The position numbers were made by a program, and so were the translations under genes. DNA of 64,000 nt from Bolinopsis microptera (lineage: Eukaryota > Ctenophora > Tentaculata > Lobata > Bolinopsidae). The notes under the pieces were generated by a model. That model was not told where the DNA came from. It saw nothing but the letters and a program-made list of their open reading frames with translations, and ran no database searches. Below, piece by piece: positions 11,755 through 48,170 of this stretch. Position 1 is the stretch's first letter. Each line of letters starts with the position of its first letter. Where the stretch lies: contig NC_087081.1 in assembly GCF_026151205.1 (NCBI RefSeq), positions 5,451,246 through 5,515,245 of the forward strand. The letters are read 5' to 3'.

Positions 11755-11862
11755 TTGTATAACGTTGCGACCCCCACGGTCGTTTCACTATGGTGATGAT
11801 ACCCTGACGATACAGGGGGAGCCGCGCACTTCTTGCGCGGCGGGTCATACAACGTATGACAA
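11755..11862. mobile_element. Hairpin element HP-A copy 1 (108 bp)
   Basis: Flanked by the perfect 8-bp duplication AGGATTCT (11747-11754 and 11863-11870), inserted in the reverse transcriptase ORF. The ends read TTGTATAACGTTG and CAACGTATGACAA, an imperfect terminal inverted repeat. The interior is a row of small inverted repeats, partly eroded relative to the copy at 13203. There is no ORF. Taking out the element and one duplication restores continuous reverse transcriptase coding, which independently fixes its borders. Confidence 0.85.
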
Positions 11863-12342
11863 AGGATTCTTAAGTGGCTGGAGTCATTTCTGTCGGACCG
11901 TCATCAACATGTTGTTCCGAACGGGGTGTCTTCCTTCGCGGCCTTGGTTATCAGTGGAGTCCCCCAAGGAACCGTTCTTGGACCCCTCCTTTTTATACTC
12001 TTCATAAATGACATGAAGCTTTGTGTGACTGGTTCAATTATAAGATTCTTTGCTGATGACACCCGTATACTGAAGCACATATATACAGAACAGGATGTTA
12101 TCGTTCTTCAGCAAGATCTTGACCATGTCAATGTCATTGCATGGGCCAAACGTAATAATATGGTTTTACATGAGGATAAGTTTGAGCTCCTAGTTCACCG
12201 GGGGAATCCTAACAAGAGTCTGTATGAGCTGCCTTTTGTATGTCAAACACAAACATACTTAATGTGTCAGGCGGTAATATGCTCTATCCTACAGACCAAG
12301 TTAAGGATATTGGAGTTATAGTGTCTTCTGATAGTGATATGT

Positions 12343-12419
12343 TGTAGGTTTACAACCTACCAGGACGCGCGCCGAGTTCAATATATGGAACAGATATTTT
12401 ACGAGTATCACCCGTTAAC
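12343..12419. mobile_element. Hairpin element HP-B copy 1 (77 bp)
   Basis: Flanked by the perfect 8-bp duplication TGATATGT (12335-12342 and 12420-12427) within the LINE ORF. It starts with the hairpin GTAGGTT-TAC-AACCTAC, continues with ACGCGCGCC and ends with CCCGTTAAC. Removing it with one duplication keeps the ORF in frame. A second copy of about 93 bp is at 48078-48170 in the opposite orientation; this copy lacks an internal 16-bp hairpin present there. Confidence 0.85.
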
Positions 12420-13202
12420 TGATATGTCGTGGTCACATCATGTCAGTTCTATGGCATCTCGAGCTAGAAAAGTTGCAGCCTGGGTGCTCAGTGCGTTATC
12501 AAGTGCAGAAATAGAATAACAATGTTGACACTTTACAAATCACTTATCCGAAGTCATTTAGAGTACTGCTGCCCTCTGTGGAATACCAGTAAAATCTCAG
12601 ACATCCAACAGATTGATTAAGGAGTACAGCGTACTTTCACCTCAAGAATTTGGGGTGTTCAACAATATTTTGACTATTGGCAGCGGCTCAAAGCACTAAA
12701 TCTAATGTCGATGCAAAGGAGGTGAGAGCGTTATATTATCATCCACATGTGTAAAATCTTACATCAACGCTGCCCAAATGACCTTGGGATTCTTTTTTCT
12801 ACTCCATCAAGACACGGAATCAAGGCCACCATTCCAAGTCTCAGCAAGAGCAGTACTCAACGTCAACAGTCATTGTATGATGGTTCATTTGCAGTAATGG
12901 GGCCACGTTTATGGAACACCATTCCATCAGATCTTCACCTCATTGAAGACCCACTGCTGTTCAAAGCAAAACTATCAGCATTTCTTAAACCGTTTCCAGA
13001 TAACCCACCTGTGAGCAATTACAGCTGTCCTAATGGAAATTCTTTGCTGGACTGGAGTATGAATAAGGCAGCAGCGATGCTGCAAGGGCGGTCGATTTAT
13101 TTGATGACCCAGTAGAGGAATCTACGAATCTCTCCAAAGTCCAAAGTCCAGGGCATCTGTTCAATTTTTATAGCGGCCTGTCTTGACTGCTTTCCAATGG
13201 TC

Positions 13203-13313
13203 TTGTATCACGTTGCAACCCCGACGGTCGTTTCACTATGTGAAACTGTATCGTCCTGACGATACAGGGGGAGCCGCGCACTCGTGCGCGGCGGGTCATA
13301 CAACGTATGACAA
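13203..13313. mobile_element. Hairpin element HP-A copy 2 (111 bp)
   Basis: Flanked by the perfect 8-bp duplication CAATGGTC (13195-13202 and 13314-13321). It contains four perfect hairpins in succession: GTTTCAC-TAT-GTGAAAC, TGTATCGTC-CT-GACGATACA, GCCGCGCAC-TC-GTGCGCGGC and GTCATAC-AAC-GTATGAC, plus the palindrome GTTGCAAC near the 5' end. It has no coding capacity. It sits just 3' of the LINE remnant. The compact structured body is unlike ordinary MITEs, which have unstructured interiors. Confidence 0.88.
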
Positions 13314-13321
13314 CAATGGTC

Positions 13322-14393
13322 ATCAGTCATACTTCTTATAATTATATCGATTCTTTAAAGCAACGTAATATGTCATTCGTCACCTTATAATTATATCAAC
13401 GTGAACATTGCGCACATCCTATTTAAACAAATTGTGTCTTTGGCTCCATTAATAAAGTCTGCCATAAAACTACCATTATACTCAAATTATGATGTCATAA
13501 AATGGCAATTAAGTTATTCAGTTTAACTTTAACTGAGATTAAGAAATGTTGATGTACAAGCTAGCAGCGCGTCATGAATTGGTCAAAAAATTAAACTTTA
13601 AAAATAATGATTCTGAGGATGAAATAAACAACAGTATTCAGTCCATATCATATATTAATAATAATATATTATATTGGAGAACTGAGAAATAAAATTAACG
13701 TAGAGCTTTTAAAAGAACTGCATAAGCAGTGGGTACTCCTGCTTAATTGATACGAACATTGGCGATTATTGGACACTGACGTTGAGGGCCTAACAATGAA
13801 CACACGTATTATGAGACGATATAGAAATATCTATACACCTGGCAACGGGAAAAAACATTGAAAACCGACCAAAAACCAACCCTCACAAATGGAATTGAAA
13901 CCTCGCCAATTTCAGCAGGGTTTTAAAAACAAGGATAGGAATAGAATATAGCATCCTTAAAATTGTGATTAATGCATTATATTTTCAATAATTAACGTCG
14001 GAAGTGAGCTAAAATAAACGTTAGAATAACTAGCAGGAAGTGGGGATGGCGCAAGAATGGCTAGCAGGGCTGTTACTGTTAGCAGTTGCAAAAACATTAT
14101 CATGGTTTAAGGTTACTGAATAGTGAATACTGATAATTTTTAAGTATGATTTTTATTTTAACTTAAACCCTAATTGTTTAATTATTACTTGTCAGTTTAA
14201 ATTAACAAGAAGAGGACCCAATCATTGGTAGTCAAACGGTAGCTATTAGCTAATTTTCTTGACCGAATACAGTTAAACCCTAATTAAAATTGAACAAAAT
14301 GCCGAACGTTACAGAAAAATCTATAATACATTAAATTGGGGTTATAACAACTGTAAGGTAACAAACCAAGCAATTATAAAATGACCCTGCCCT
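13322..14393. other. AT-rich intergenic, no gene seen
   Basis: No exon, RNA gene or element boundary can be supported in this kilobase. Confidence 0.45.
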
Positions 14394-14630
14394 TCAATCA
14401 CGATGCTGATTGTTGTTGCAAGGGAACTTGCCGGTAGACAGTGGACACGTCATAACGATACAGTCCAATAAAACTAAGGGTGCCTTCTGATATCTGGACC
14501 TCAGACCGCTGCTTATATAATATTCGTAACTCTCCTCAATCCCGCCTCCACAGGGCTCTCTGACTACAGCAGTCTTACCGGCGCAGCTTGTTTCACAAGG
14601 CCTCCCCACACCATGTCAACTTATTAGCCT
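14394..14630 (-). CDS. Possible terminal exon of a cysteine-rich protein
   Basis: A minus-strand open stretch ends at a stop at 14394 and encodes a compact Cys-containing segment (RPCETSCAGKTAVVREPCGG, later CIVMTCP and KFPC). Its composition is less AT-biased than its surroundings. A possible acceptor (CTAATAAG) lies near 14628. I could not connect it to upstream exons, and a 19-bp terminal inverted repeat of a transposon begins at 14659, so the neighbouring exon may be displaced or lost. Family unknown; it could also be chance. Confidence 0.3.
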
Positions 14631-14658
14631 ATTTCAAACCACCGCGGTGCGTTTATTA

Positions 14659-15515
14659 GTAGAGGCTCTTACGGGCATTGTCTGCTCGATACGTTAGGGA
14701 CCCCAGATACACCTTACTAGACGTATTTTTGACCGTAGAATCGATTGAAAGTGGTTTCAAGATGATTGGACTGATTGTTCTGGGGTAAAATCGCAAAAAA
14801 CCGATTTTTGGGCCAAAAATAGGCCAAAAAACCATGTTTTTTGATATTTTGAGCAAGTTAATTTTGTTGGCATGTCGGCAAAACTTGCATAAAGATAGCT
14901 AAAAGACAGCCGCACAAGATTGTATAAAAATAAAACAAATCCCTCTATTTGTTCTGAGGTAAAAATCCAAAAAAGTGGTAAAAATTTTGACTTTTTTGCT
15001 TGAAGTTTGAATAATTTTTTGCAGTTGTATTAAATCAACCCAAAAATAGTCACATCGTGTTTGCCTAAATTTTTCATTTCCGAGAAGTACCCACTTCATA
15101 TACTTTATCGAAGTTTGAATATTTTCACTCCGCAAGCGTTTTTGCCAAATTTTCGACGCGCACTACGCGCAAAATCATTTAGTTGTTATCAATTGGCACC
15201 CGCGCGTTCATCATAAATTTCAAACAGCTATAACTCAGCGAGATTATGTCCGTTCTAGCTCATATTTTCACACTAAATAGAAAATAATGTGATCTTATTG
15301 CTGACAAAATATGAATATAATTAATCTATTTGCCTTAGAGTAATAGACTGTCAAAGTTTAAAACGCGCATTGGTAAAGGACGTGACTAATAAGGCCAAAT
15401 TTATACTTCTTAACATATTATCGATCCTTAGACATCATACTATTGTGTCCAATTAGCGGTTAGGTCTCTAAACTCGTAGCAGAAAACACGTCTTTTTGCC
15501 CGTAAGAGCCTCTAC
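14659..15515. mobile_element. Non-autonomous DNA transposon with 19-bp perfect TIR, TA target
   Basis: GTAGAGGCTCTTACGGGCA at 14659-14677 and its perfect complement at 15497-15515 bound an 857-bp AT-rich element. TA dinucleotides flank both ends (14657-14658 and 15516-15517), as in Tc1/mariner insertions. There is no transposase ORF. Part of the left half (TCTGCTCGATACGTTAGG onward) recurs at about 23070-23345. Confidence 0.85.
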
Positions 15516-16476
15516 TATATTGATAAAAGCTCTTTGTTTCTTGAATAATGCTTCAACACGTGCAAATTCTTAGAGCGCATGTTCACTAATGAAAACGCTA
15601 ACAATTTTTGTTCGGATTCTAGGGCCGAAGGGCAGAATTCGGTTCCGAGAAAGTTAGTTTAACAAAAGGTACAGTGGAGCTGCACGTGCCTGCTTCACTT
15701 CTTTACCTTAGATGGCAAGTACGTACGGTACAGGGCTTTAAGTACGTACGGTACAGCTACTTTTAAAGGTACGTACCGTACAGGCACTGTAAGGTACAAT
15801 TTTTTTTCAAATTTTTAGAATCAACTTCAGTGAATTACTTGCAATTTCTGATTAGTATTATCATCATAATTTTTGAGATAGAAGTCGAAAATTAACACAG
15901 TGGTTAAAACAATAAAAGATTTTTTTCACAGGGTGAGAATCCTTGTCAGGTTTTACTGGTTCTTCCAGGGCTCATGTCTGTCCGCATTGCACTTTGTGGC
16001 GAGGCAGCATTAGTGTCTATAAAAGAATCTTGTGCCTAGCGAGGGGACTCGCAATGCCATGGTGGGCTATGAATACACCAGTTTAACTCACGAGGCAACT
16101 CGCAAAAGCCATGGTGGGCCTTGAATACGCCAGCTTCTCTGGTTACTATAGAGCCGACAGCGCTAGTGGGCCCCCTTATGTACCAGGACTCTACCGGCAA
16201 CGATCGACTAACGCTCTAGATATAAGCAAAGATTGGCGCGCAGTCATAAACAAATAAACAGCGGGTGCGCGCACAGAACTGCTTCCCGCTAGCACCAATA
16301 ACACTCACCTGACTCCCATGTGACACTAACCTCACGCCGCGGTGCGGTAATTCGATCATGACAAGCCAAACCGGATTAAGTTAGTTAGTTAATATAGCCG
16401 TTCTGCTTGCCAGTCTCTACATTAATTAGCCCGCTGGGTTTTGCTGCCCCCCTGTTTGCAAATTTGCCGCCCCCTC
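15516..16476. other. Repeat-derived segment, no gene
   Basis: Contains three of the GTACGTACSGTAC motifs (15719, 15741, 15769). It also holds an imperfect tandem duplication of about 54 bp at 16035-16140, each copy including GCCATGGTGGGC. Its left part (about 15709) pairs in inverted orientation with about 17774, so it may lie inside a larger composite element. Confidence 0.45.
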
Positions 16477-16478
16477 GG

Positions 16479-16736
16479 AGAGTGTAATGGGAGTATCGCT
16501 ACAATGTGGGAGTGTAATGGGAGTATCGCTACAATGTGGGAGTGTAATGGGAGTATCGCTACAATGTGGGAGTGTAATGGGAGTATCGCTACAATATGGG
16601 AGTGTAATGGGAGTATCGCTACAATGTGGGAGTGTAATGGGAGTATCGCTACAATATGGGAGTGTAATGGGAGTATCGCTACATTGTGGGAGTGTAATGG
16701 GAGTATCGCTACATTGTGGGAGTGTTATGGGAGTAA
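16479..16736. repeat. 30-bp minisatellite, about 8.5 copies
   Basis: Unit GAGTGTAATGGGAGTATCGC plus TACAATGTGG, very homogeneous, with only T/A and G/A variants. In-frame length (30) opens two overlapping repeat ORFs that I do not consider genes. Confidence 0.95.
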
Positions 16737-17039
16737 TGTATAGTATAAGTTACCACACCAAACGTGTGTAATGTGTGTAATGGCATAAATGGACCCTGGA
16801 TCAGAACCTGTATTTCCTTTGTCGTACATTATGATCCCTGCTCCTGTTATTTCTGGACTGAGTGAGAGTCCACCTCACGTGACGTCACAAACCCTCACGT
16901 TTTAGCTCAGCCACCAAAAGGCAGATAGTATCAATACAGTTCCACCTAACACACTATCCAAACGTTAGCACACCCGCAACCGCCATTAGCAACCTACGTC
17001 TCACCAAGTCTCAAGAGCCAGCATTACTCAGCACGGGCG

Positions 17040-17272
17040 TCATCCTTTCATGGTATGGTGTTGAGCGGCCAGGGTAACCACCCAGAACTTCCCTAGGGAC
17101 CAAGTTAGTAAATCTTCGGAGGTGCAACCCCGATTCGGCTGATACCTTAGCAGGTATTATCATCCAGTGGCCCTCAGGGAAGGGGCTTAATGCAGATGGA
17201 TGGACTCCAGTAGGACGCTCCCCAAGTGGAGGGTCGCCACCTCTATATGACGGTGGTCAGTGGGTGTCGCGA

Positions 17273-17310
<38 letters not shown>
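17040..17310 (+). mobile_element. Poly(A)-tailed retroposon 3' segment
   Basis: A GC-richer block of about 230 bp ends in 37 consecutive A residues (17274-17310), the hallmark of a retrotransposed RNA copy. No A or B box, ORF or known SINE head is visible, so the source could be a LINE 3' UTR, a SINE or a processed RNA. The left boundary is uncertain. Confidence 0.5.
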
Positions 17311-17312
<2 letters not shown>

Positions 17313-18513
17313 AAAGATTTAAGAGGAAAATTTGTGTACTGGATCGCTCTTAACCGGTACTACACTAAGTCTACTACTTGTAATTATCGTTAAACTCAAA
17401 GCTTCATCCTTTTGTTGCAGTATACGAACACCAGCTTTTCAGCTAGCTCAGGTCGCAACCTTAATCTACGCTTGTCCATAATATACTCGTAATCTCTAAA
17501 ATTGGTCTCACAAATTGACGAAAACACTGAATACTATTTGGGCCAACTGTTTAAGCAGAAAAAGTTCTCCTCAAAAATATTTCCAGTATATTGACGGATT
17601 AATAAGCTTCATAGGTTCTGATTCCGCATCAGTGTAGGGTTTTACCCTTTCTCTGTCGCACGTACCGTCTAGTTTTGTTTCCATTGCTATCAACTGGATT
17701 CAACCTTTCAGCCTACTTTATTAAGTACGTACCGTACAGCTTATTTAAAGGTACGTACCGTACGAACTTACCATCTTAGTTCTTTACTCACCAGTTGGTG
17801 TTATGAGGTCTAGGAACAAACACAGGCTCATGAACTAATAAATCCGTAAATGTTTTCACCATTTATTTAGTCTGACTACCTCTTCAAGGGAAATTTAAGA
17901 TTTATTCCAAACAATAACAGTGCAGGTGGTAAAGTTAACGTGTTTCTTTATCAGCCATCTGACCGCGGTTTACTCTCCAGTTCAATGGAGTTAATTTCAT
18001 CCTGCTGGATGAAATTTCTATTCAAGTAATGCTTTTCAACTCCAGGACTGTTAATGTGTTGTTCCACTAAATTAACACGACCATCTTGAGAATGACCTGA
18101 TCAATCTTCGCCGTCTGGATATGAAGAAAATCATTGTGTTAAAAATCTTACTACTATCCGATAGATCCTTGCTAGGATTGGCTCTAACTTATCTGCAAGA
18201 CATGTTCAGATACTTACAAAATAGTCACTCATTGAAACTTATTATCCTATCTTTCAAATTCTAAGTTTAGTGGCCTGAGTGTTGTCTGTGAGAGCGAGGT
18301 AGCACTAGCAGTGGCAGGGAAATTTAAGAGATTTGCTCTTCCGGAAACGCCAAGCAGAGGAGAGGACGGTGTCGTCAGATTTTTTCTGCTGTAGATATAT
18401 CCGTCAGAATCAAGCACCTGTTGACATCATCTGAAACCATTGAGGAACTTGGAGAAGGAATGCATGACTGTTGATAGAATGTGATACTACTACCTTCTAT
18501 CTTCTAGTATATA
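17311..18513. other. Intergenic, no gene seen
   Basis: Moderately AT-rich sequence with two GTACGTACSGTAC motifs (17723, 17750). Nothing supports an exon. Confidence 0.45.
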
Positions 18514-18621
18514 CAGCAGGGTGTCATAATTATTGGCGGGTAGAAGATTTTGCGGAAAATTTTAGCTTACCCAAGCTTTCAGAAATGATCAATCTGAGGG
18601 TCAGTTTCTGACACCCTGCTG
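18514..18621. mobile_element. Mariner-like MITE (108 bp)
   Basis: TATACAGCAGGGTGTCA at the left and TGACACCCTGCTGTATA at the right are perfect inverted copies with TA at the borders (18512-18513 and 18622-18623). The CAGGGTGTCA-type terminus is typical of mariner-derived MITEs. Internal length about 80 bp, no ORF. Confidence 0.8.
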
Positions 18622-18926: not shown

Positions 18927-19604
18927 TTCTTTTCTTAGTTTTTACTTTATGCTAACAACAGTGAAAAAGAGGAATGAAATTTTACAAAACTTTCAGGAAA
19001 TTTAAATTTGACCCATATCTATAATTAGTATATTCTCTAAAATTCTGACACGAATTACGTAAGTTATTAACTAGGGTTGCTTGTGGGCAGTTACTTGTGG
19101 GCAACCCTGTATAACAATTTATGATAGTATACTGAGTTACACGATAACAGTAAAAGAGAATGTTAATTCATTGATTCTTGGTTCTAATTGTCCGCATGTA
19201 TTATCTTATTATAAATATTCTTCACTTAAAATTACAAATAATAAAAGTGCTAAAAGTCACTCCAGCAATTATCAACACGACGTGCTGACACGAAACTAAA
19301 CACGTGGTAAACACGTGGTAAATACTCCTCGCATTAGAACATTGTCCAGTAAAACATGATGTTCAACTCTTTTTAATTAACTGATTAACTAATTAACTAA
19401 TTAACCACAACATCTATGCTATGATTAAACACCCGCCCACATAACTGTCGATTATTCCGAATTAAACTAGTTCGGTTATGGAATAATTGTGTGTAGCTGG
19501 ATCAACTCAGTTCTTCTCACTTAACTGTAGGGATATATATTACATGTTTTAAACAATCCATCTCCAGGTCTAGGGATAGTGGACCTTTACTGATCGTTGA
19601 AATT

Positions 19605-19710
19605 CGACATCTAGCGTCATCCAGCGTCATCTAGCGTCATCTAGCGTCATCTAGCGTCATCCAGCGTGTCATCCAGCGTCATCTAGCGTCATCCAGCGTC
19701 ATCTAGCGTC
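19605..19710. repeat. AGCGTCATCT short tandem array
   Basis: About 10 copies of a 10-11-bp unit form the left inner arm of the foldback element. The complementary array is at 20335-20550. Confidence 0.8.
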
Positions 19711-19811
19711 ACCATAACCCTCTAACTCTCTAATGTGCTGAAACCCTAACCCTAACGAGAAATTAGACCAACTTCCTAAGTCCTGACGCGGCGACATCTA
19801 TCGCTTAATAG

Positions 19812-20229
19812 GATTGGGCGACATCTGTCCGACAGCGACATTTGTCCGACTCAGAAAATAGGTTATTTGGACAATAGTTTATGTCGGATCCTACCGTACG
19901 ATTTTCTCAAAACTTTCCACAAAGTATGGTGGTTATAGGACGAATAATTTGTGTAAGTTTGAGCGAGTTTCTATGTGCCAAGTTTAAGATATTACCTTAA
20001 ACACAAAACATATAACCAATTCGGTGGTTTTCAGTGGTTCCAAAGCATATATCTGGAGATCTAACGATACGATTTTCTTGAAACTTTCTAGTTAGTAAGA
20101 TAGCTTTAAGACAAATAATTTGTGCAAGTTTGGATAAATTTTCTATGTGCCAAATTTGAGATATCACTTCAAAAACACGAAAATAGTGCTGTCGGACAGA
20201 TGTCGCTGTCGGACAGATGTCGTGTTACC
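19812..20229. mobile_element. Nested DNA element family G, copy 1
   Basis: Flanked by the perfect 8-bp duplication CTTAATAG (19804-19811 and 20230-20237). Termini GATTGGGCGACATCTGTCCG and the complement of GTCGTGTTACC share the core GACATCTGTCCGACAGC as subterminal inverted repeats. A shorter relative lies at 46855-47091 with its own 8-bp duplication. No ORF. Confidence 0.85.
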
Positions 20230-20334
20230 CTTAATAGCGCTAGACAGCACTAGACAGCGCTAGATGTCGCCCACAAAAAGGCCAGTAATTCTGTGCAAAT
20301 AGCGCTAGCTGTCGCCTGGCGACAGTGTCGTGTA

Positions 20335-20555
20335 ACTAGCGTCATCTAGCGTCACCTAGCGTCATCTAACGTTAGATGACGCTAGATGACGCTAAATGAC
20401 GCTAGATGACGCTAAATGAAACTAGATGACGCTAAATGAAACTAGATGACGCTAAATGACGCTAAATGAAACTAGATGACGCTAGATGACGCTAAATGAA
20501 ACTAGATGACGCTAGATTACGCTAGATTACGCTAGATTACGCTAAATGTCGAATT
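20335..20555. repeat. AGATGACGCT short tandem array
   Basis: About 20 copies with variants (AAATGACGCT, AAATGAAACT). This is the reverse complement of the array at 19605-19710. Confidence 0.85.
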
Positions 20556-20724
20556 TCAACAATAAGTTAAGGTCCGGGATAGTAAGTGTATCAGTGTGTT
20601 TAATTGCTTTGATTGTCAGCTGATTTTATAATTTTCCTTTATAGGAAATCTTTCTCGTGTTTCATGATGGTTTCGCGATACAGGTGCTAAAATCTGATTC
20701 TTTAAACTCGTTCCTTTTCTTTCG

Positions 20725-34458: not shown

Positions 34459-34468
34459 TGTTAAATAC

Positions 34469-37400
34469 ATACATGTTACATGTTACATGGCGAGATCTCC
34501 ATCCAAAAGGATTAGTCTGCGTCATCTGCGTCATTACTTTGTATTATACAACTTCGGCGGGTAACATTTCTCCATCCCTTTCGGTCTGCAGCTAATCTTC
34601 TCATACAATCAATCGTGAGTCCATTACGATCCAATCTCTGCTCAGCATCCTCAATGAATACATCATTTAAGCTCTTCCTAGGCCTGCCTCTTGATCTCTT
34701 CCCATGCTTGGGTTTCCATTCAAGTAAATAGTTGGGCAACCGATCTTCAGGCATTCTACTGACATGTCCAAACCAACGCAGCCGTTTTGTTGTTATTATG
34801 TCAGCAAGGGCAGTTATTGATGCCCTTCTTAAAACATCCTCATTACTTACTCGATGGAACCACCTCACTCTCAGGATTCTTCTTAAGCAGTACTGATGGA
34901 AAGACTCCAATCTTCTTGTCTGCACTTGAGTCGTGTTCCATATCTCACATCCATAGGTCAGAATGGTAAGAACAGCTGCGATGTAGATTCGCACTTTGTT
35001 GTTAATGCTTATGTTCTTATTCTTCCAAATGTTGTTGAGTTGGTTAAAAGCTCCGGTTGCTTTTCCAATCCTGACACTTATTTCTTTATCAATCTTGCCA
35101 TCTGATGTAATTTTGGCACCCAAATAAGTGAATTGAGTGACCTGCTTTGCAGAGTTTCCATCGACAGTTATATCTATGGTCCTATTCTCTGGGAGTGGGT
35201 GCTGCGATGTATCTTTCCCAATGACCATGATCTCTGTTTTCTTTGCGTTCATCTTTAAACCCCCAAGTCCACAGTATTTCGCAATATTGTCCGTAGTTTC
35301 TTGCAGTCCTTCAACAGTGTCATCCATTCCTGCGATGTCATCAGCATAGTCAAGATCAATGACACATTTTTCCGGTTGTCTGGAACTTTGTCTGTACTGA
35401 AGTGTAAAACCACGGGATATATTCTTAAACTTCTCTGCAAGTTCTAATCCCCAGTTAAGTACAAGATTAAAAATAGGGGGCCCTTGCACATCACCTTGTC
35501 CAGTCCCCGAATCGACATCACACCATCTTGTCAATTTTCCATTGACACGAACTGCACTTTCAGTTGCTCTAAAGAACGCTTTGAAAACAATGATATATTT
35601 TGTCGGAAGACCATAATGTTCTAAAGCTTTCCAAATAAAGTCACGATTGATTGAATCAAAAGCAGCTTTAAAATCAATAAAGTTTATGTACAAAGGGACG
35701 TTGAATTCTATACAATTGTGTATTATACAATGAAGTGAGTACAGCTGATCTATACAAGAACGGTTTCTCCTGAAACCACACTGATTCTCTCTGAGTAATT
35801 TTTCAAGCCCATTACTCAGTCTTTTTAACAACACAATTTGGAATAACTTTGATATAGTTGAGCGTAAAGTTATACCTCTGTTATTGTTGCAATATGTGAG
35901 GTCCCCTTTCTTTGGGATGATGGTGATTATTCCTTTTCTCCAATCATTAGGAATATCCTCACTTTTCCACACAGTTTCAAAAAGATCCTTTAACCAAGGC
36001 AGAAGTCCAGGAGAACCGTACTTTAACTGCTCATTTGAAATTTCATCAATTCCAGCACTCTTGTAGTTCTTCAACTTCTTGATAGCTTCCTCAATTTCAA
36101 ACAAGGACGGTGGTTCATCATCATTACTAAGGTATTCAAAAGAAAGTAACTTTTCATCCTGATCCAATATAGAGAAATCCACCGCATTTGCTGCTGGCGT
36201 CAAGAGTTCTTCAAAATATTCGGCCCAGCGATGTGATTGAGCTTCGGGATCTGATATAAGCGTCCCATTCTTATCCCGCTCTGCCGCAGATCTGTTTACT
36301 CTCTTGTTTGTTAGGGATTTTATTTTCTGCCAAACATCTCTTTGTTGACCCTGCTTGGCAGCATCTTCTAATTCCTCAGCTATTCTAACAGCCCAAGCAT
36401 TATCATCTCTTTTACAGTTCTGCCTAACAAGACCGTTAATCCGCGAGTACTTAGCACGGTTCTCAGCAGTACTGGGTTTCTTTTTAATCTCCCCTCGTTC
36501 TTTTAGGAGATTCTTAGTATCCCTTGAGAGATGTTCTGTTCTCTTTTTCCGGCCCCTTTCACCCAGAACTTCAAATGAAACATCAGTTATTATATCTCTT
36601 AAATTTTGCCACTGTTCTTCTAAAGGAGAGTTTTCATGCTCCTGATCGTTGTTATAGTACTCTTCAGCTATTCTGTTAATATATTCCTGGCTCTTAGATC
36701 TATCACGCAGGTGCTCTAAAGCAGGCTGTCTTACACGCTTCTTTCTTTTCTGAGGACACTTAAGTTTAATAGATACATATCCTCTAACCAGATAGTGAGT
36801 AGTATTTATATCTGCTCCTCTCATGCTCCTGACATCAAGCAAAGAATGGCTCCATCTCGTCGAAATACACATATGGTCAATTTGAGTGACGGTGTTACCA
36901 TTTGGGGATATCCATGTTGTCTTGTGGATATCCTTGTGTTCAAAGAGTGTGCCTCCAATCGTCAGCTGGTGCATAGTACAGAAATCTAGCATCCGTTTTC
37001 CGTTATCATTTGATTCTGTGTGATATGAGTGTTTTCCTATAACACCAGGGTGAGCATCAGTATCCCTTCCAACACGAGCATTAAAATCTCCTAAAACTAT
37101 TTTTATATCATGAGCAGGTAGTCCCGATTGAACATCATTCAATTCCTTGTAGAATGAGTCTTTTAAACTGATTTCTGCATCCTCAGTTGGAGCATACACA
37201 ACTGTAACACTAATGTTGATGTGTTTGCTATGTAAACGGGCAGTCATAACCCGTCCTGATACAGGGGTGTATGATATGAGAGTATTCTTCATCTTTTTGG
37301 AAAGAACAACACCAACTCCTTCTCTCCGTACTCCATCGCTCCTGCCAGAATAAACCAAAACAGCCCCATTGCTCAAAGTCTGAGTTCCTGATCCAGCCAT

Positions 37401-38193
37401 ATGTGTTTCAGTTACCCCAAGGAGCTCTAGTCCATAATCATCAACACCTTTTCCTAATTGATACATCTTACTGGAATTACTGACAAGAGAAGTAACATTC
37501 CATGTACTGATACAGAGAGGATTCTTTACAATATTTACAGGATTAGACATACTTGACTGTCTGTTTACAAATGACAAATCTGATGAAGGAATTCTGTATT
37601 TACAGTGTTTACGTCGGCTCTTACGGGAGTTGCAAACAGACATCAAGCTACTAGGGTCCTTTCGGCTTTGACTAGTCGCCGTCATCACTCCACCTGCGCC
37701 TCCACGTATAATACTATTGAATGACACTGTAGACGTTTCTGTAGCGGTTTGATTTAAGGTTGATGGTTTGCCGGACCTTCGCACCCGATCCAGAGGCAGC
37801 ACCGACATCAAGAAGTTAGCGCTCCGTCCAGACACCAGCAAGCTGGTGGTTAGGTTCGATACGTTAAATTAAAGCATGAAGAGCTTCTGAAGCCCATAGG
37901 GAATCAAAATTAAACCGTAAGTGATCATGTCAGAGACAAGATCACCAAGCAAATGCTCGATTACACAGGGCAACCAAGACTTGGACAAAATGGTGAACCG
38001 TGAGTGACACACAGATGACCCTGCCACAAGACAGCATCACCGAGCACCACCCAGCAATTGCATCCTCTCGCCACCACAGCAACCGACCCCCCAGTGATAT
38101 AGCACTGACAGGCAATTAACGGTTTTATGGTGTTACCACTCCCAGGTGATCTGTGCTAACAGACTCGGACCAGATGCAAGGGGAGCTAAATAC
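34469..38193 (-). mobile_element. Full-length RTE-like LINE retrotransposon
   Basis: A 3.7-kb minus-strand element is flanked by the 10-bp duplication TGTTAAATAC (34459-34468 and 38194-38203). It comprises a 5' region of about 350 bp, one intact ORF (37841-34512), almost no 3' UTR and a short tandem tail of ATGTAAC-type units at 34470-34490. Single-ORF organisation, EN-RT order and a short tandem 3' tail fit the RTE clade. The intact ORF and matching duplication imply recent insertion. Confidence 0.85.
34512..37841 (-). CDS. LINE endonuclease-reverse transcriptase ORF (intact, 1,109 aa)
   Basis: One uninterrupted ORF carries out target-primed reverse transcription of its own RNA. Residues about 109-350 are an apurinic-type endonuclease with the expected catalytic positions (TWN near 114, ETH near 146, YAPTED near 216, LGDFNARVG near 250-258, IDH near 322). 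A linker of about 230 residues follows. The reverse transcriptase spans about 590-900, with QCGFRRNRSC (687), motif A FIDFKAAFDS (721), motif B GQGDVQGPPIF (781) and motif C DYADD (831). The C-terminal part holds TYGCEIWNT and RLRWFGHVSRM, common in these elements. The start is the first Met; the true start could be a later one. The YADD box is complete and no stop or frameshift is seen, so the protein may be functional. Similar ORFs are often annotated as craniofacial development protein 2-like. Confidence 0.93.
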   Translation of the reverse strand: MLVSGRSANFLMSVLPLDRVRRSGKPSTLNQTATETSTVSFNSIIRGGAGGVMTATSQSRKDPSSLMSVCNSRKSRRKHCKYRIPSSDLSFVNRQSSMSNPVNIVKNPLCISTWNVTSLVSNSSKMYQLGKGVDDYGLELLGVTETHMAGSGTQTLSNGAVLVYSGRSDGVRREGVGVVLSKKMKNTLISYTPVSGRVMTARLHSKHINISVTVVYAPTEDAEISLKDSFYKELNDVQSGLPAHDIKIVLGDFNARVGRDTDAHPGVIGKHSYHTESNDNGKRMLDFCTMHQLTIGGTLFEHKDIHKTTWISPNGNTVTQIDHMCISTRWSHSLLDVRSMRGADINTTHYLVRGYVSIKLKCPQKRKKRVRQPALEHLRDRSKSQEYINRIAEEYYNNDQEHENSPLEEQWQNLRDIITDVSFEVLGERGRKKRTEHLSRDTKNLLKERGEIKKKPSTAENRAKYSRINGLVRQNCKRDDNAWAVRIAEELEDAAKQGQQRDVWQKIKSLTNKRVNRSAAERDKNGTLISDPEAQSHRWAEYFEELLTPAANAVDFSILDQDEKLLSFEYLSNDDEPPSLFEIEEAIKKLKNYKSAGIDEISNEQLKYGSPGLLPWLKDLFETVWKSEDIPNDWRKGIITIIPKKGDLTYCNNNRGITLRSTISKLFQIVLLKRLSNGLEKLLRENQCGFRRNRSCIDQLYSLHCIIHNCIEFNVPLYINFIDFKAAFDSINRDFIWKALEHYGLPTKYIIVFKAFFRATESAVRVNGKLTRWCDVDSGTGQGDVQGPPIFNLVLNWGLELAEKFKNISRGFTLQYRQSSRQPEKCVIDLDYADDIAGMDDTVEGLQETTDNIAKYCGLGGLKMNAKKTEIMVIGKDTSQHPLPENRTIDITVDGNSAKQVTQFTYLGAKITSDGKIDKEISVRIGKATGAFNQLNNIWKNKNISINNKVRIYIAAVLTILTYGCEIWNTTQVQTRRLESFHQYCLRRILRVRWFHRVSNEDVLRRASITALADIITTKRLRWFGHVSRMPEDRLPNYLLEWKPKHGKRSRGRPRKSLNDVFIEDAEQRLDRNGLTIDCMRRLAADRKGWRNVTRRSCIIQSNDADDAD

Positions 38194-38203
38194 TGTTAAA
38201 TAC

Positions 38204-40930: not shown

Positions 40931-40939
40931 ATACAAAAA

Positions 40940-41315
40940 GTGGCTTAGTGGCTTAGTTGGTTAATCTGCTTGTCTAGTGTCTACTGGCCCTGACGATGCG
41001 AGTTCGAATCCCAGTTGGGCCAAGATTTCAAAATAGATGGGCAGCCGTCGCTCACCAAACCATGGTGTAGCTACCATAGTAGCTCTCATTAGAGCTGCGA
41101 AAATAACACGAGTGCATATGCCTGGGGTTGCGTCTCGACTATGCTGCAGGGAAATCTGTACCGAAATAACACGAGTGCATATGCCTGGGGTTGCGTCTCG
41201 ACTATGCTGCAGGGAAATCTGTACCGAAATGACCGTGGCCGCACCGCAAAAGAAAAGGAGATCGGCCCCTCGATCCTAGCTTGCTAGGTTCGCCATTGTT
41301 GTTGTTGTTGTTGTG
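40940..41315 (+). mobile_element. tRNA-derived SINE with (TTG)n tail
   Basis: The head has a perfect pol III A box TGGCTTAGTTGG (about 40949-40960) and a B box GAGTTCGAATCCC (about 40999-41011) at tRNA spacing. The T stem does not pair properly, so it is a tRNA-derived promoter, not a functional tRNA. The body includes a tandem duplication of about 63 bp (41098-41160 and 41162-41225) and ends in TTCGCCATTGTTGTTGTTGT. Imperfect flanking repeats (AGTCTCGTAAAAT and AGTCTCTCTGAAAAT) may be the target duplication. The 80-codon ORF across it is a by-product of the duplication. Confidence 0.82.
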
Positions 41316-42047
41316 TATAGTCTCTCTGAAAATGTGTCCTAATCGGTGTTTACCTCGCACCTAGCAGCAGCTATGGGGAACTTTGCAAGGTAGCCCCATC
41401 CAATCCCATTCTCCCAACGGCAATAGCAAGGACCGCCTTGTCTAATTTGGTGATTTAGTTGGCACCCATGGGCATATGTCGTGTCGTCGAGTAGGATTTT
41501 GATATTCTGATAGTCTTATGAGTATGACACTCCTGCTGCTAACTGCTGCTCACTGCCGTCATGGTTTAGGAGATCGAGGGTGGCGTTGATTAAAATAACA
41601 CCGACAGCGGCGGCGTGGAATCAATGTCAACTAAATTTTGGTTTATCGTGCAGCTTTATAAATATAATTTTATCGACAGTGCTAGTGTAATAATAATTAA
41701 TATGAAACACTTTAAATTTGCTATTCAGTAATGAGTAAGCTGTGTTAAAAAACAAAATTGATTTAGTACAATTATTTTCAAAGTTTAAAATTTTGCCAGA
41801 CCCTGAGACCCATTTATATTTTTGTCGGACATTATGTGGACAAAATTGATTTTGAACGGACAATATTTGAATGAACGCTTTAATTTCGAAGTCATTGAAA
41901 ACCATCATAATCCAAATTTTTTCATTTATTTGGCGTTTTTAAATTTAAGCAGATAATTTTAAAATCAATTTTCATACAGTTAGCAAGAAAAGCAATAAAC
42001 ATTGTAATAGATTAAAAAGAACTACCCGGAGACAGCTGTTATACTCG
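41316..42047. other. Intergenic, nothing recognised
   Basis: No exon supported. The first 270 bp are GC-richer and may belong to a retroelement flank. Confidence 0.4.
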
Positions 42048-42177
42048 TTGACGGATGTTACTCGTCTAAATTTCTTTGAAGTATATAGTATAGCGCGCGC
42101 CGCTTTCTTCTCGAAATGGCCCGATGGCACGAGCTACGAAGTAGCGCGCGCCGGGCAAAATCATTAACAATGGTCAA
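42048..42177. mobile_element. Hairpin element HP-C copy 1
   Basis: It begins TTGACGGATGTTACTCGTC and ends ATTAACAATGGTCAA, matching the 42458-42600 copy in inverted orientation. It includes the palindrome CTACGAAGTAG and GCGCGCGCC. The left flank TATACTCG (42040-42047) recurs at 42215-42222, beyond a tandemly repeated GGTCAATTGACAGTTATATA. The original target duplication was therefore probably TATACTCG, with later tandem growth at the right end. Confidence 0.75.
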
Positions 42178-42457
42178 TTGACAGTTATATATACTTGGTC
42201 AATTGACAGTTATATATACTCGGCAATAACGATTCAATAAACATCGTCAATCGTCATCAGCTAATTCATGGACACTAACTACCGCCCTTATCCCGATTCC
42301 CGAAATACTAAGTATACTTATAGTCATAGAAACGTCTTCTGCCCCAAGGTTTGGTAGGCTTGCTGACTATAAATTGGGCAGTTTTGCGAAATTGTAGTGC
42401 AGACCACGTCATTTCTTGGCGCTTTCACGATATCTAAACCCACATATCTCCACAGTC

Positions 42458-42600
42458 TTGACCATTGTTAATGGTCTGACCCGGCGCGCGCTACTTCGTA
42501 GCACTTGCCATCGGGCATTTCGAGAAGAAATAAGCGGGCATTTCGAGAAGAAAGCGGCGCGTGCTACTTCGAAGAAATTTAGACGAGTAACATCCGTCAA
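42458..42600. mobile_element. Hairpin element HP-C copy 2 (143 bp)
   Basis: Flanked by the perfect 9-bp duplication TCCACAGTC (42449-42457 and 42601-42609). In this orientation it starts with TTG and the hairpin ACCATT-GTT-AATGGT, then CTGACCCGGCGCGCGC, the palindrome CTACTTCGTAG and a duplicated GGGCATTTCGAGAAGAAA, and ends GACGAGTAACATCCGTCAA. No gene; the ORFs across it on both strands are incidental. Confidence 0.88.
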
Positions 42601-42609
42601 TCCACAGTC

Positions 42610-43560
42610 CACCTTTGATTGGAGAAAGGAGATCAACTTGGGTATCAAAATGGTTAGAATCATCACATTTAGGGGAGTAGAACATGGTTTCAAAGTCCTC
42701 ACACTTAAGGTTGATAAGTTATGTGACCACGCGCCGCCCTCTTTCGCGAATTCGGTCTCGCGCGCGAGTACAATAACAATTATAATCACACTTATTTCAG
42801 TATATCTCAGCTTCTGATTGGAGCTAAGCGCTCATCTTGGGCATTAAAATGAGTTATTATATTATGCCAGCTGACCCCAATTTTACGCTGTCGCGAGTTG
42901 CAATTATTGACACTAGCTTAATACTTTAATTAAGCGCTCATGATCCTGGGAATTAAAATGGTCAGAATCATCATATTGAGTGGGGTAAAACATGGTTTTA
43001 AAGTCTACAGACTTGGTGTATCAACATTTTTCCCAAACTGGCTGAACTAATTGCCGAGCTGAACATTCTTGATAAAAGGTATGTTACTCTCATTATTGTG
43101 ATTGACGCTTACGTTCGGCAACTTAAGTTGAACCATAATTAGAGAGTTATACTTATAGCATTTATATTGATTGATCACGTTAAATTTAATGTTTTTTATG
43201 GCATATTTAATCTTTCTTAAATCAAGCCCTAATCTTTCCCTTTCAGTATGATCCTATTAAAATTAAACTGGAGTATATAGATTCTCCACAATCAAAAATG
43301 TCAACGAGTTTTGTGTTTGTTAAGGCGTGACGTGTTTGTTGTTAGATGTGACGTGTTAGTTTCTCTATAACAATCTTTGATTTTCTGCATGTGCAGCTCA
43401 GCAGTGCAGTGCAATTATATTTGCACGCATGATTAAAAGATTGAACAGTGTTTAACTTTAATAACTGTAATTAATTCAACAACAGGACTTCTTATAGGCG
43501 TGTTGCCATGGCAACAGGAAAACAGTAGTTTGCGCTGTGCACTAATTCTGAACATAATAA
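42610..43560. other. Intergenic, nothing recognised
   Basis: It contains two imperfect copies of a block with ATCATATTGAGTGGGGTAAA-like sequence (about 42652-42715 and 42955-43015), so a diverged repeat is present. No exon is seen. Confidence 0.4.
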
Positions 43561-43565
43561 GACGT

Positions 43566-43766
43566 TTAATAAAATTCTAACTGGCTGTCTTGTTTTAATT
43601 TTAATTTAGCCCGGTTTAAATTTTTTAAATGACATGGTTTTATGATACCATCTGATGGGGCAATGCCAATTAATTCTTGTTGCTGAATTTGGTTTTTTTT
43701 TAATGTCTGTTCTTCTACAATTTGTTTTAAATAGTTATAACTGCCATCAATTATCATTAAATCATC
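43566..43766 (-). CDS. Candidate terminal exon, unknown protein
   Basis: A minus-strand stretch of 66 codons plus stop follows a good acceptor (GATTATTTTTCAG, ending at 43767). It is open throughout and has a protein-like Lys/Gln/Leu-rich composition (NYLKQIVEEQTLKKNQ, then IGIAPSDGII). No family is recognised and no upstream exon could be joined. It could be a decayed transposon ORF. Confidence 0.35.
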   Translation of the reverse strand, partial: DDLMIIDGSYNYLKQIVEEQTLKKNQIQQQELIGIAPSDGIIKPCHLKNLNRAKLKLKQDSQLEFY

Positions 43767-43829
43767 CTGAAAAATAATCAAATCCATTCCAAAATTAAAG
43801 TATTGCAGAGAAAGTTTGTACATTATTGA

Positions 43830-45050
43830 TTTGTGTCATGCTGAATATCAGCACGTTATGCAATTGTCTTATTGTCTAGAATAAGTGCAGTAAATCCTTT
43901 GTTTCCATATAAACCAGTAAAGGCATATTAAAACGCATTATTCGTGTAATATAGTGACAAATCCTGAGCTTCTGTTAGATTTCACAGAACAATGACTCAC
44001 TCCGTACAACAGTTTATTTTTTCTGTAAAGCAATTGATTGAGAAGAGTGAGTTGCTCAAGTTGCATGCAGCGCGCGGCTCACGTGGTAAGCACGTGGGCT
44101 CACCTGACGTGCATGTGCACTATAAGAACTAGTTGCTAACGAACTATGTACACTTTGACTTACTATTTAAAATCCCGCAGACTTGCAAAGACGTGATTTT
44201 GTGGACATTCCTGGTTCTTGCAGCGTTGGACATTTTAATTTTAGATTTTTATAATTAACTAGACTTTAGTTATATATCTTGATTTAATGATTTAATGATT
44301 TACATGACTTCGTGTCATTGAAAAACTCTAATTTTAGATTTTACTCAAAATGATCTTATTTCTCGCAGTTCATTAAGAATTATTTGACGCATTTATTATT
44401 ATCAATTAATTAATGAACTTAAAAATACAAACATGATGCCGAGGATACATAAAGACAACACTTTCCGTTAAAACTTGATCAGTTTTTTGTCACTTCGACG
44501 TCTGCAGACAAAGTGAGAACGTAAGAACTGAAACATTAATAGAAATCGTTACTTCTATAATAATAACCTGAGTCAAACGCCGTACATATAGAGTTAAAAG
44601 TGAAGGATAAATTAGAATAATCATACTATTACTAAATTGACACGTACGACACATCAAAAATTTAATTGGGATTATATTTTAGTTAACGTTTAAGAACTTT
44701 ATTCAATTGTTTTAGGTGAATTATGTTTCATAAATAATATTTCCTCCTTAAAATTTAAGGACCATGACGTGAATTGATAGAATTGCCCATTTACCTCCTT
44801 AAATTATCCGATTCCTTTAAACATGACCTTCACACAGTTTTACTGGACAGACAGTCCTATAAACCGAATACACTCGGACAATATAAATTATACCGGTTTA
44901 AATCCTAATGATCACGATGCTTTATACACTCCGCAAAGTTATGCTGTCCCAGATTTCAAGCTATTCGTGGCCTTATTATATTATCCATTTAAATCCAGTA
45001 AAGTCAAAACTGTTGCTGCCTCACCGAACCTAATCAACAACCATTTGTCC
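43830..45050. other. Intergenic with a CACGTG pair
   Basis: Two CACGTG sites at about 44079 and 44091, otherwise AT-rich without supported features. Confidence 0.4.
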
Positions 45051-45802
45051 TAGGGTTTGGAACATATATTATCGGCGATAATTTGTGTAAAAATTCAACC
45101 GATAAACCGATAAACCAATCCTATTGAGGCACCCCATCGCGGGTTTACTAGTACTACTACTAATAATATCAAACATTTTTCTTCAAAAATTATTTCCAAA
45201 AGGTTTGAAATTCCGTAAAATCATCGGTCAAATTTAGACTTTAGCGTTATTGGGCCTCTACAGCTAACTAGCTAATTCTCACCACCCACTTTCACTCTTG
45301 ATATAGTAAACTGTTAGCATGGATATTTATCAACCGAATTTGCTACCTAAATCAATGTCATCCTCTCATTGTAAAATTAAAATATGTAAAGTTATTCACA
45401 TTTCATTGATGATCAATCTTTTAACAGCATATGTTTCCCAATGACCCATTCCAATAGAGTAAAATTGTATTTCGCCAATAAGACATCTATAAAGTAAAGT
45501 TACTTGTTTTACTTGAACATCTGTAAATTGTAATTTTCACGCAATTGAAGTGATATTATCTGATTGCTTTCTAAATAAATATACAATGCCGTTGTGGAAT
45601 TGCAAATTAATACATGTTTAGAATTCTTGTAACAGTAACTCAGGACTTCGGTAATCCTCATTCACAAAGGTGACAAATGTGTAATTGATTATGTCAGTCA
45701 TAAAAATCAACAGAAACTTAGCTCATTGTTATGACAAAATTTTATCGCCGAAAATTATCGGTATCGCCGATAAAAATTATTGGACCGATAATGCAAACCC
45801 TA
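45051..45802. mobile_element. hAT-like non-autonomous element (752 bp)
   Basis: The termini TAGGGTTTG and CAAACCCTA are inverted, with subterminal TTATCGG and CCGATAA motifs. The flanks ATTTGTCC (45043-45050) and ATTTTTCC (45803-45810) match 7 of 8, as expected for an aged 8-bp hAT duplication. No transposase ORF. Confidence 0.75.
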
Positions 45803-45810
45803 ATTTTTCC

Positions 45811-46460
45811 TAAGTTAGCCAAATTCGGTGTGGCCATTACATGCCAAAAAAATTAGGACCGATTTGGTATGTTTATAACTTGCTTATTTGACGCTGACCA
45901 AAATGAATGGTGTATACCAGAACCAATGATATTTACACTTTGCACTTTTATACTTGAGGTTCACATGTATTCTCTTGACAGTACGTAAGTACGTTTTGCG
46001 TAGGATTAGGAAGTTGAAGTGCTAACCGCATCCATGAAATATTGCGAATGAGTAGACCGGTATAAACCTCGTGAGTTTGGAGTTATAGTTCTCATGTTTC
46101 AGTAAAGGTGTGTAACACGTCAGTGTTCCGCATCTTGATCAATCTATGAGAGTTATATGAGCACGTGTATGCTATGCAACTCTAAACTTATCATTATTTA
46201 GTATCACTATTTCTAAACATATCATAATGTCTAAACATATCATTACTGCTCACTAGTACGGTGAAATGAAAGGTCAACTTCTCGTTAACTCGTTAAGAAC
46301 TAATCAGGTACTTTCATGTAAAAGCGTGATACATTCGTTTCGCTGGCCGATATCCCAACTGATCTTCGCTGTTCCCATATAACTCTAATTAATATATGAT
46401 TGGTACACTTTGTTCGTTAGACCCGCGATATGTTCATTTGTACAGCGGGATCAACCACAG
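45811..46460. other. Intergenic, nothing recognised
   Basis: No exon or element supported. The right part may be promoter sequence for the candidate start at 46618. Confidence 0.4.
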
Positions 46461-46465
46461 TGCTC

Positions 46466-46721
46466 CTTTATTTATAAATACCCCAGCCAAACTAGTTGGT
46501 ATAGTGTGACCGTTAGCTGTGTGACCTATCAGCTATCTGCTTATAGTTGTGGTATCTTTTTAGTTTTGTATTTTTTTAGTTGATCCTTTAGTTATATCGA
46601 AGATGTGATTTGAAATAATGACGGAAGTATCTCGTGACAAATTCTCCACTTCGTCAATCAATTGTAACAGTGGTTACTCTGTTCTTCTGTTGTTACGACT
46701 TATTATAACATCAACAAAGGT
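46466..46721 (+). promoter_or_regulatory. Candidate promoter and first coding exon
   Basis: A TATA-like TTTATAAATA at about 46468 precedes an ATG at 46618 by 150 nt. The ORF from it contains a hydrophobic run (YSVLLLLRLIITS) and reaches the possible donor ACAAAG|GTCAAT at about 46716. The downstream acceptor TCTTCAG has been hit by a transposon at 46855. The gene model cannot be completed from sequence alone. Confidence 0.3.
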
Positions 46722-46854
46722 CAATGGCACCCTCTTTCTTGAATGGTGATTTTATCGAACCTGTTCTTTTTAAAAACCTGATGAATGTCCATATCGAATG
46801 AATTGTGAATTTTTCTAATGAAGCAGATTTTGTTTTTTTAATTATGTCTTCAGA

Positions 46855-47091
46855 GGTAACACAACATCTGTCCGACAGCACTATTTAATTGTGTTTGAAG
46901 TGATATCTCAAATTTGGCACATAGAAACTCGCTCAAACTTACACAGATATCCGTCCTATACAAACGAACCACCATACTTTATGGAAAGTTTCAAGAAAAT
47001 TTTACGGTAGGATCCTACATAAACTATTGTCCGAATAACCTTTTTGTCTGAGTCGGACAGATGTCGCTGTCGGACAAATGTCGCCCAATCG
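46855..47091. mobile_element. DNA element family G, copy 2 (237 bp), inserted at a splice-acceptor-like site
   Basis: Flanked by the perfect 8-bp duplication TCTTCAGA (46847-46854 and 47092-47099). Ends GGTAACACAACATCTGTCCG and GTCGCCCAATCG match the 19812-20229 copy in inverted orientation. The target is preceded by a T-rich tract and followed by open coding-like sequence, so the duplicated TCTTCAG may have been a 3' splice site. Confidence 0.85.
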
Positions 47092-47152
47092 TCTTCAGAT
47101 CCTGAAGGAACTGAAATATTTGAGAGACTTGCGTTTAAGGTTTCGGAGAAAA

Positions 47153-47860
47153 AAGTAAATACTCACGCATGTAGGCATTGTGTCCTATTAGTATTACCTT
47201 ATTACATTATATGGCCTGACTCAGCCTGACATTTCCGATTTTACCAGTACCACATAAGATTGTGGTTGTTCCGTCCTTCAGTAATTGATCCTAATGTGAT
47301 TTTTCAGGCCTCCAAAAACCCTATGCATTTCACTTGAACGTGGTTTCATTTTGGGAGAAGAATTATAAAAGTATGGGGGGAGGGGGTTTGTAATTTGGAA
47401 ATGGTAACACTAGTGTCATTTGCACACCATATATATGTGTACACTGTACTGTGTAGAAGTCATTACGGACGAAGTCTAAAAACCAAATTTCAGTTTCTAG
47501 ATTACGTAATATTTAAACAATCCCATATAATCATTTGCTTGCTCAGATTTCAGATATTTAAGCAAGTTAGCAAGCTTGTTCACATGGTTGCTAACTTGTT
47601 TAATATAGTTAGCAAACAAGCTAACAATTGTCCGCATAACAACGCGGGGACTGTTCAAATTTGCGTGATTACAGTTTGATGGTGCATTGAACATGCAAAG
47701 CCGCGCACCACGGTTTAGCTCACACAGTTTGGGGTTTTTGAGCAGTAATATCTGAAAATGATGTAGTTCTAGTTCTAGAGCATACGTAATTGCACAAAAT
47801 AAATTATGAGTAATGTGATTGCACTCCGCAAAGTTATATTGATCCGGGATAACAAGAATG
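47153..47860. other. Intergenic, nothing recognised
   Basis: No supported exon. A short AGCAAGTTAGCAAGCTTGTT palindromic region occurs near 47560-47630. Confidence 0.4.
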
Positions 47861-48077
47861 GGTATTTATTTGTGAAACTTGATTTCGAGATAGCAGTTGA
47901 CCAACAAACTATAAAACCAGTGACCGAACTTTCGGGGGGGTCCCGGACCCCAACCGCCAAACGGTGTCTGCGGGGCAGCCACGCCCATATTTGGTCCAAA
48001 TTAGGCCGAGTTTAGCCAAATACCCTGAACATGCCCCATACCCATATTTTATGTGCTCTTCTTGAAGCTAGTGGTCA

Positions 48078-48170
48078 CTTAACGGGTGATACTCGTAAAA
48101 TATCTGTTCCATATATTGGACCGTCGACGAGTCCAACTCGGCGCGCGTCCTGGTAGGTTGTAAACCTACA
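48078..48170. mobile_element. Hairpin element HP-B copy 2 (93 bp)
   Basis: Flanked by AGTGGTCAC (48070-48078 and 48171-48179; an 8- or 9-bp duplication). Compared with the 77-bp copy at 12343 it has an extra hairpin TTGGAC-GTCCAA. It ends in GTAGGTT-GTA-AACCTAC-AA and starts TTAACGGGTGATACTCGT, which resembles the HP-C start TTGACGGATGTTACTCGT. Confidence 0.88.

Follow-up and report, generated by a model that had tools for sequence, protein, structure and literature searches.

Within a 64,000-nucleotide stretch of the genome of the ctenophore Bolinopsis microptera (contig NC_087081.1, positions 5,451,246 to 5,515,245; the whole stretch is called the window below), six very short repeats have ends that can be folded into hairpins, and the question is what kind of DNA these repeats are and how they spread. 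A preliminary description of the window took them to be a class of tiny mobile elements with target-site duplications (TSDs) of about 8 bp and many further copies in the genome. This was borne out: the repeats are genuine, recently active mobile DNA with two hairpin-shaped ends and a target duplication of about 8 bp, since TSDs, an empty site, an abundant left end and many identical copies demonstrate their mobility. Moreover, the pairing of the ends is kept while their sequences diverge, and the tiny copies are unlike one another in their centre, at one fixed place, a feature which is new relative to the preliminary description and had been missed there.

The six copies, in three groups (HP-A, HP-B and HP-C), lie where they had been placed, except that the limits of both HP-B copies were shifted by one base, using the TT..AA ends (Table 1). 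Five copies are bounded by TSDs of 7-9 bp, four of them exact over 8-9 bp and that of the copy at 12342 over seven bases. At the remaining copy, the HP-C copy at 42048, a flush TSD was not found; TATACTCG recurs only ~47 bp beyond its right end, past a tandem duplication of the sequence at that end (42178-42224, TTGACAGTTATATATACTYGG units). The left stem of the same copy is imperfect (TTGACCATTGTTAATGATT), whereas it is paired at 7 of 7 positions in the HP-A copies, the HP-B copies and the HP-C copy at 42458. The GC-rich block, as well as the right end common to HP-B and HP-C, is present as described. The label 'all-hairpin', on the other hand, suits HP-A best, because single strands of the two HP-A copies fold far beyond their shuffles (z -5.4 and -5.1), while those of the HP-B and HP-C copies do so less (z -1.0 to -3.0). 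Rfam gave no matches within the window. The window also contains the empty site of the 48079 copy, at a distance of ~1 kb from it. By eye, the two HP-A copies and the first HP-B copy lie in or beside a decayed, retrotransposon-like stretch with broken frames (11500-13320).

Table 1. Hairpin-ended copies and the empty site in the window
Feature	Position	Strand	Details
HP-A copy, 108 bp	11755-11862	-	hairpin TTGTCATACGTTGTATGAC at the 11862 end; TSD AGGATTCT, exact
HP-B copy, 77 bp	12342-12418	+	centre join GAGTT/CAATATATGG; TSD TGATATG, 7 exact, eighth base mismatched
HP-A copy, 111 bp	13203-13313	-	TSD CAATGGTC, exact
HP-C copy, 130 bp	42048-42177	-	left stem imperfect; no flush TSD; continues on the right into a tandem duplication to ~42224
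HP-C copy, 143 bp	42458-42600	+	TSD TCCACAGTC, exact (9 bp)
HP-B copy, 93 bp	48079-48171	-	centre of the commonest form, GGTCCAATATATGG; exact TSD GTGGTCAC (9 bp counting the preceding A)
Empty site	49070-49249		flanks of the 48079 copy duplicated in inverted orientation, 96-98% alike, one AGTGGTCAC, no element

The assembly searched for further copies comprises 264.65 Mb in 232 contigs, of which 13 contigs of 15-26 Mb make up ~97.5%. The exact 28-bp left end of HP-B occurs at 1,049 places, compared with none for its reversed control. DNA searches with one copy as the query gave at least 42 matches for HP-A, at least 43 for HP-B and at least 45 for HP-C, drawn from 40 scored of 1,317, 1,601 and 1,728 candidates, respectively, and 28 of the 43 HP-B matches listed are identical to the 93-bp query (48078-48170) over its full length. 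The loci fetched (given L numbers here) were the best-scoring matches for HP-A and HP-C; for HP-B, they were successive places on contig C1 at which the 28-bp left end is intact, and four C1 places already known as the common form (961243, 3224141, 4648824 and 9448195) were not fetched. From 59 fetched HP-B left ends, exclusion of four copies of 181-227 bp and of seven ends with no right end within 300 bp left a set of 48 tiny copies. TSDs of 7-9 bp flank 21 of 22 HP-A copies, 35 of 48 tiny HP-B copies and 13 of 20 HP-C copies, whereas shuffling the right flanks among the HP-B copies gave 0.7 of 48 on average and never more than 3. Target preference is weak (53 exact 8-bp sites; T accounts for 6% of bases at the first TSD position and for 51% at the third).

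Sixteen ends from eight families (A-H) can be lined up without gaps, and all of them consist of TT, a 7-bp stem, a 3-nt loop and 7 pairing bases. In this alignment, 84.8% of stem cells are paired (50.3% in shuffles), 41 cells are altered on both sides (14.2 in shuffles), and the covariation score is 0.874, falling to at most 0.135 when the alignment is slid by 1-3 columns. Some left ends had been picked because of their pairing; among the eight right ends, which had not, 39 of 56 cells are paired, compared with a shuffled mean of 23.7. The two HP-A ends are similar to each other, while the ends of HP-B, HP-C and HP-D have the TT and stem-loop geometry in common and little sequence. A scan of 352,494 fetched bases for the left motif with an exact 8-bp TSD gave 72 matches, against 1, 2, 1, 11 and 2 at wrong offsets, although most of the 72 come from loci fetched for families A-C, some places were counted twice and one match in the window is a tandem repeat. 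Families D, G and H were added by this left-motif scan, each with an exact TSD, and families E (a 5.3-kb element, exact TSD ATTACGGC) and F (exact TSD GCTTGCAG) were seen by eye; E, G and H are each represented by one or two clear cases. End pairing is thus kept while the sequences diverge, both between families and between the two ends of one element, as the preliminary description had claimed for the groups, and the safest statement is that the elements form a MITE-like superfamily (MITE, miniature inverted-repeat transposable element) whose palindromic ends are under selection for pairing and whose centres are remade by end joining. The findings which that description had named as speaking against it, namely, few further copies, TSDs at chance level and no compensatory change, were not encountered.

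Between the ends, identical arms enclose a hypervariable centre at one fixed place. The 48 tiny HP-B copies contain 43 distinct middles (43 of 52 if the four unfetched common-form places are counted), and in all 48 the left arm is retained to at most 57 bases and the right arm to at most 40, never beyond. Genome-wide junction pattern searches found 768 HP-B and 358 HP-A places; among the first places in contig order, 42 of 100 HP-B junctions and 56 of 98 HP-A junctions are distinct, two overlapping double matches having been removed from the 100 HP-A places. Deviation from the majority reaches ~50-68% at the central columns of HP-A and HP-B versus 0-14% in most arm columns; since equal decay after insertion could not make the centre so much more variable, either the central change takes place before insertion or the centre is a hot spot. 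The forms observed include short deletions, copied stretches of the arms (L083, L089, L104 and two HP-A places) and a snap-back palindrome, CTGTTCCAATATATGGAACAG (4/100), and several long 'insertions' scored in tiny HP-B centres are partly artefacts of arm substitutions. Five of the 48 tiny copies (L008, L015, L090, L104 and L116) hold the commonest junction plus a further lesion, which indicates that the editing is serial. At four duplicated places carrying one HP-D insertion, the centre has kept its length and shows substitutions only, so that this centre was stable after insertion. Capture of random DNA was considered for the larger copies and rejected: the 205-bp insert of L102 is itself a hairpin element that has a duplication of its own, nested elements are also present in L093 and L020, and L011 and L019 appear similar by eye.

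A larger autonomous relative with the same ends had also been anticipated. Long relatives were found, among them an 8,505-bp element in L061 with HP-B ends and the TSD ACATAACA, but this element is non-coding. L128 holds an HP-B element of ~8.3 kb (TSD TATATAAA) and L123 one of ~3.95 kb, whereas the right end was not found within the 9 kb fetched for L121, L122, L124 and L125. The interiors of the long HP-B elements are collinear and rich in tandem repeats, and their intact left inner boundary occurs at 16 places genome-wide. No open reading frame (ORF) of at least 90 residues is present in L061 or L064, and the six read-through frames of L061 gave no Pfam match over the cut-off. The 5.3-kb HP-E element yielded only an RVT_1 fragment, below the cut-off, and a 336-residue ORF in L124, whose Pfam matches are likewise all below it, is one that we take to resemble ORF1 of long interspersed nuclear elements (LINEs). 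When the transposases of sampled loci were compared with the long elements, matches appeared only in L063, where a hAT-like stretch (3226-3456) lies away from the HP-B copies, and in L125. In the latter, 133 codons (reverse complement, 1188-1571) resemble the N-terminal part of a MULE-type protein, that of L065 (36%, E 1e-20; 38% in a second comparison); they lie in a stretch that does not align with L061, and it is read as a nested fragment because of a stop within ~150 codons and the TAGTGATTCAGTCCG repeats that follow. With this exception, no transposase was detected in the interiors of the long relatives examined, in what was an incomplete search.

Two observations on these loci may be added. 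The apparently inverted interior of L064 was rejected as such, because L064, L081 and L062 form one rearranged 26-kb HP-B element (C1:3598186-3624512), in which a second left arm replaces the right arm, no TSD matches, the 5.3-kb HP-E element is nested and the tandem repeats are expanded. In L123, a 534-residue open frame with a 2OG-Fe(II) oxygenase match (7398-8999; 2e-18) lies outside the 3.95-kb HP-B element.

The explanation that we favour, and hold to be rather probable, is that these repeats belong to a superfamily of non-autonomous, cut-and-paste-like DNA elements with palindromic ends, whose centre is remade by end joining around mobilisation. Each end is the palindromic unit described above, and the two ends of one element may differ in sequence. 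A putative transposase acting in trans would insert the elements by an 8-bp staggered cut, and it would probably recognise the palindrome, as two half-sites or in the form of an extruded hairpin, and not a single fixed sequence; this would explain why the families diverge with pairing kept. The tiny copies would be two end arms joined at the centre, and repeated end joining there would account for the small deletion or insertion that nearly every copy has of its own; the central break would then be part of the mobilisation cycle rather than of later decay. A more specific version, which we regard as improbable, is that the tiny elements move as two unlinked half-elements and that the transposase reads the palindrome or hairpin shape. 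Breakage at the centre would be followed by joint insertion of both hairpin ends at a spacing of 8 bp, after which end joining by the host would close the middle and give each new copy a scar found in no other; such breakage would be useful because the stiffness of very short DNA keeps its two ends from meeting.

Several results weigh against remaking of the centre, or against the favoured explanation as a whole. The commonest HP-B centre accounts for 37 of 100 places, so many copies must have moved unchanged. Microhomology is only weakly raised (1-3 bp in 12 of 18 insertion-free tiny copies, versus ~43% expected with uniform breakpoints), and the stability of the centre after insertion was judged from the single HP-D insertion. 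Long reads assembled with wtdbg and then polished underlie the B. microptera assembly (PMC10232365), so one-base differences at the centre may be errors. An exact flush TSD of 7-9 bp is absent in 13 of 48 HP-B and 7 of 20 HP-C copies, and two of five covariation measures were not distinguishable from shuffles (two-sided change counted by pairs, 300/500; further pair types, 33/500). Finally, the mover was not found among the transposase loci read and the long relatives examined.

As to the origin of the tiny copies, the classical MITE route, in which abortive repair following excision turns a long HP-B element into a tiny one, separately for every copy, would account for arms common to tiny and long elements, for the collinear interiors and for joins at differing points; of the seven left ends without a right end within 300 bp, three (L010, L018 and L099) do retain parental interior. 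We nevertheless consider it unlikely, because the retained arms stop at the same limits in 48 of 48 tiny copies even though the parent runs for kilobases, because the four copies of 181-227 bp, read by eye, hold nested elements or unrelated inserts and no parental interior, and because only 16 intact inner boundaries stand against 1,049 left ends. The second lesions in 5 of 48 copies likewise point to the editing of elements that were already tiny. Alternatively, the repeats may be ordinary MITEs in which instability of the palindromic centre sets in once they are inserted, through hairpin or cruciform cutting or slippage, so that the centre decays much faster than the arms. The palindromic arms fold strongly and the changes are located exactly between the two hairpins, as this would require, yet the four duplicated HP-D places with constant centre length and the commonest HP-B form, unaltered in 37 of 100 places, make such decay in place a poor prospect.

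The nature of the transposase bears on two further alternatives. The genome contains 88 MULE, at least 150 hAT and 58 IS1595 matches, and eight loci of each (24 in total) were read. None of the 24 has TT-hairpin ends, though about ten (L066, L067, L070, L071, L072, L077, L129, L131, L132 and L134) show no callable termini of any type, and the 23 loci scanned hold no TT-hairpin pair with a TSD around the transposase; L069 was outside the scan and has GGCAG ends. All termini that could be called are of other types. The eight MULE loci read out of 88, callable in only some cases, gave GGCAGTATCGAGATAGCCC (L069) and GATTGGGCGACTCCTGTCCG (L065) and none with HP ends; for IS1595, L135 and L136 have GGCAG ends with a TSD, while L129, L131, L132 and L134 are among those without termini. 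Several of the eight hAT loci have CA-type ends (CAAGGGTCGACC, CAGTGGCGTAACG and CAGGCTTGTCC), and callable hAT ends begin with C. The HP elements have the 8-bp TSD of hAT elements, from which hAT-type mobilisation had been suggested, but all HP ends start with TT instead of the CA/TA-type short repeats of hAT, and the termini give this suggestion no support. For KDZ/Zisupton and P/THAP9-like transposases, PF18758 and PF21787 had no matches, and the controls also matched nowhere. It is quite possible, though we would not put it at even chances, that the elements belong to a known superfamily with 8-9 bp TSDs (MULE, IS1595/Merlin or another) in which palindromic ends are unusual, and that a coding copy sits among the unread loci, given how plentiful these genes are and the MULE-like codons in L125. 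The differing callable termini, the scan of 23 loci, which is a weak exclusion with ten loci lacking callable termini, and the nested nature of the L125 stretch argue the other way. Y1 enzymes are not expected to produce clean TSDs of 8 bp or an empty site carrying a single target copy, which makes single-strand, hairpin-guided transposition of the IS200/IS605 or REPIN kind, with the hairpin recognised in single-stranded DNA, very improbable. The tiny size, the hairpin ends with compensatory change and the poorly conserved spacer are what would suggest it, being described for REPINs as well (PMC3116915).

A side observation from these loci is that L069 (2129-5393) and L135 (1140-3806) have a near-identical terminal repeat (GGCAGTATCGAGATAGCCCGACC) around a MULE-model match in the former and an IS1595-model match in the latter.

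Among known systems, MITEs are short, ORF-less sequences of high copy number, bounded by TSDs, with long relatives that have the same ends and with nested insertions. The HP elements agree with them in all these respects (fetched copies of 63-158 bp, window copies of 77-143 bp, no coding sequence, many copies, a TSD of fixed length, 7-9 bp), so that the statement that ordinary MITEs do not look like this holds only in part. What sets them apart is that each end is an individual palindrome (TT + 7-3-7), differing in sequence between ends and families with pairing kept, and that the centre is copy-specific at one fixed place. With hAT, Merlin/IS1595 and MULE elements they have the TSD of ~8-9 bp in common, but not the callable termini found in this genome. 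The RAYT-associated REPINs, doublets of bacterial REP sequences, are ~100 bp long, and like the HP elements they have conserved sequence at both ends, a spacer that is less constrained and hairpins with compensatory changes; the HP elements differ in residing in an animal genome and in their ~8-bp TSDs, the string 'target site duplication' being absent from the text of the REPIN paper (PMC3116915). Mitochondrial repetitive or double-hairpin elements of sponges and fungi are also tiny, mobile, hairpin-forming and ORF-less, but they sit in mitochondrial DNA, and those of Allomyces are noted as lacking flanking duplications (PMC2800124), which are clear in the HP elements. The literature search, judged from its result lists, gave no recognised description of such elements in ctenophores, which does not prove that none exists. 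Chromatin looping in another ctenophore relies on a GC-rich motif, and DNA transposon insertions occur in >90% of looping promoters there (PMC12221973).

With hundreds of copies and near-identical ends, the elements may be regarded as a natural record of the birth and remaking of tiny DNA elements, in which repair outcomes are visible side by side at one place in copies of one element. This bears on the origin of MITEs and on how an element of <100 bp can transpose, and the defined end motif can be used to seek the transposase in an early-branching animal lineage.

Elsewhere in the window, a 1,109-residue open frame on the minus strand (34512-37841) carries reverse transcriptase and endonuclease domains (Pfam) and represents a LINE-type element. 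Dense satellite-like direct and inverted repeats with a unit of ~10 bp (CGTCATCTAG) occupy 19581-20575, and an inverted repeat with arms of 387 bp that are 98% alike and 315 bp apart lies at 58950-59336 and 59652-60038.

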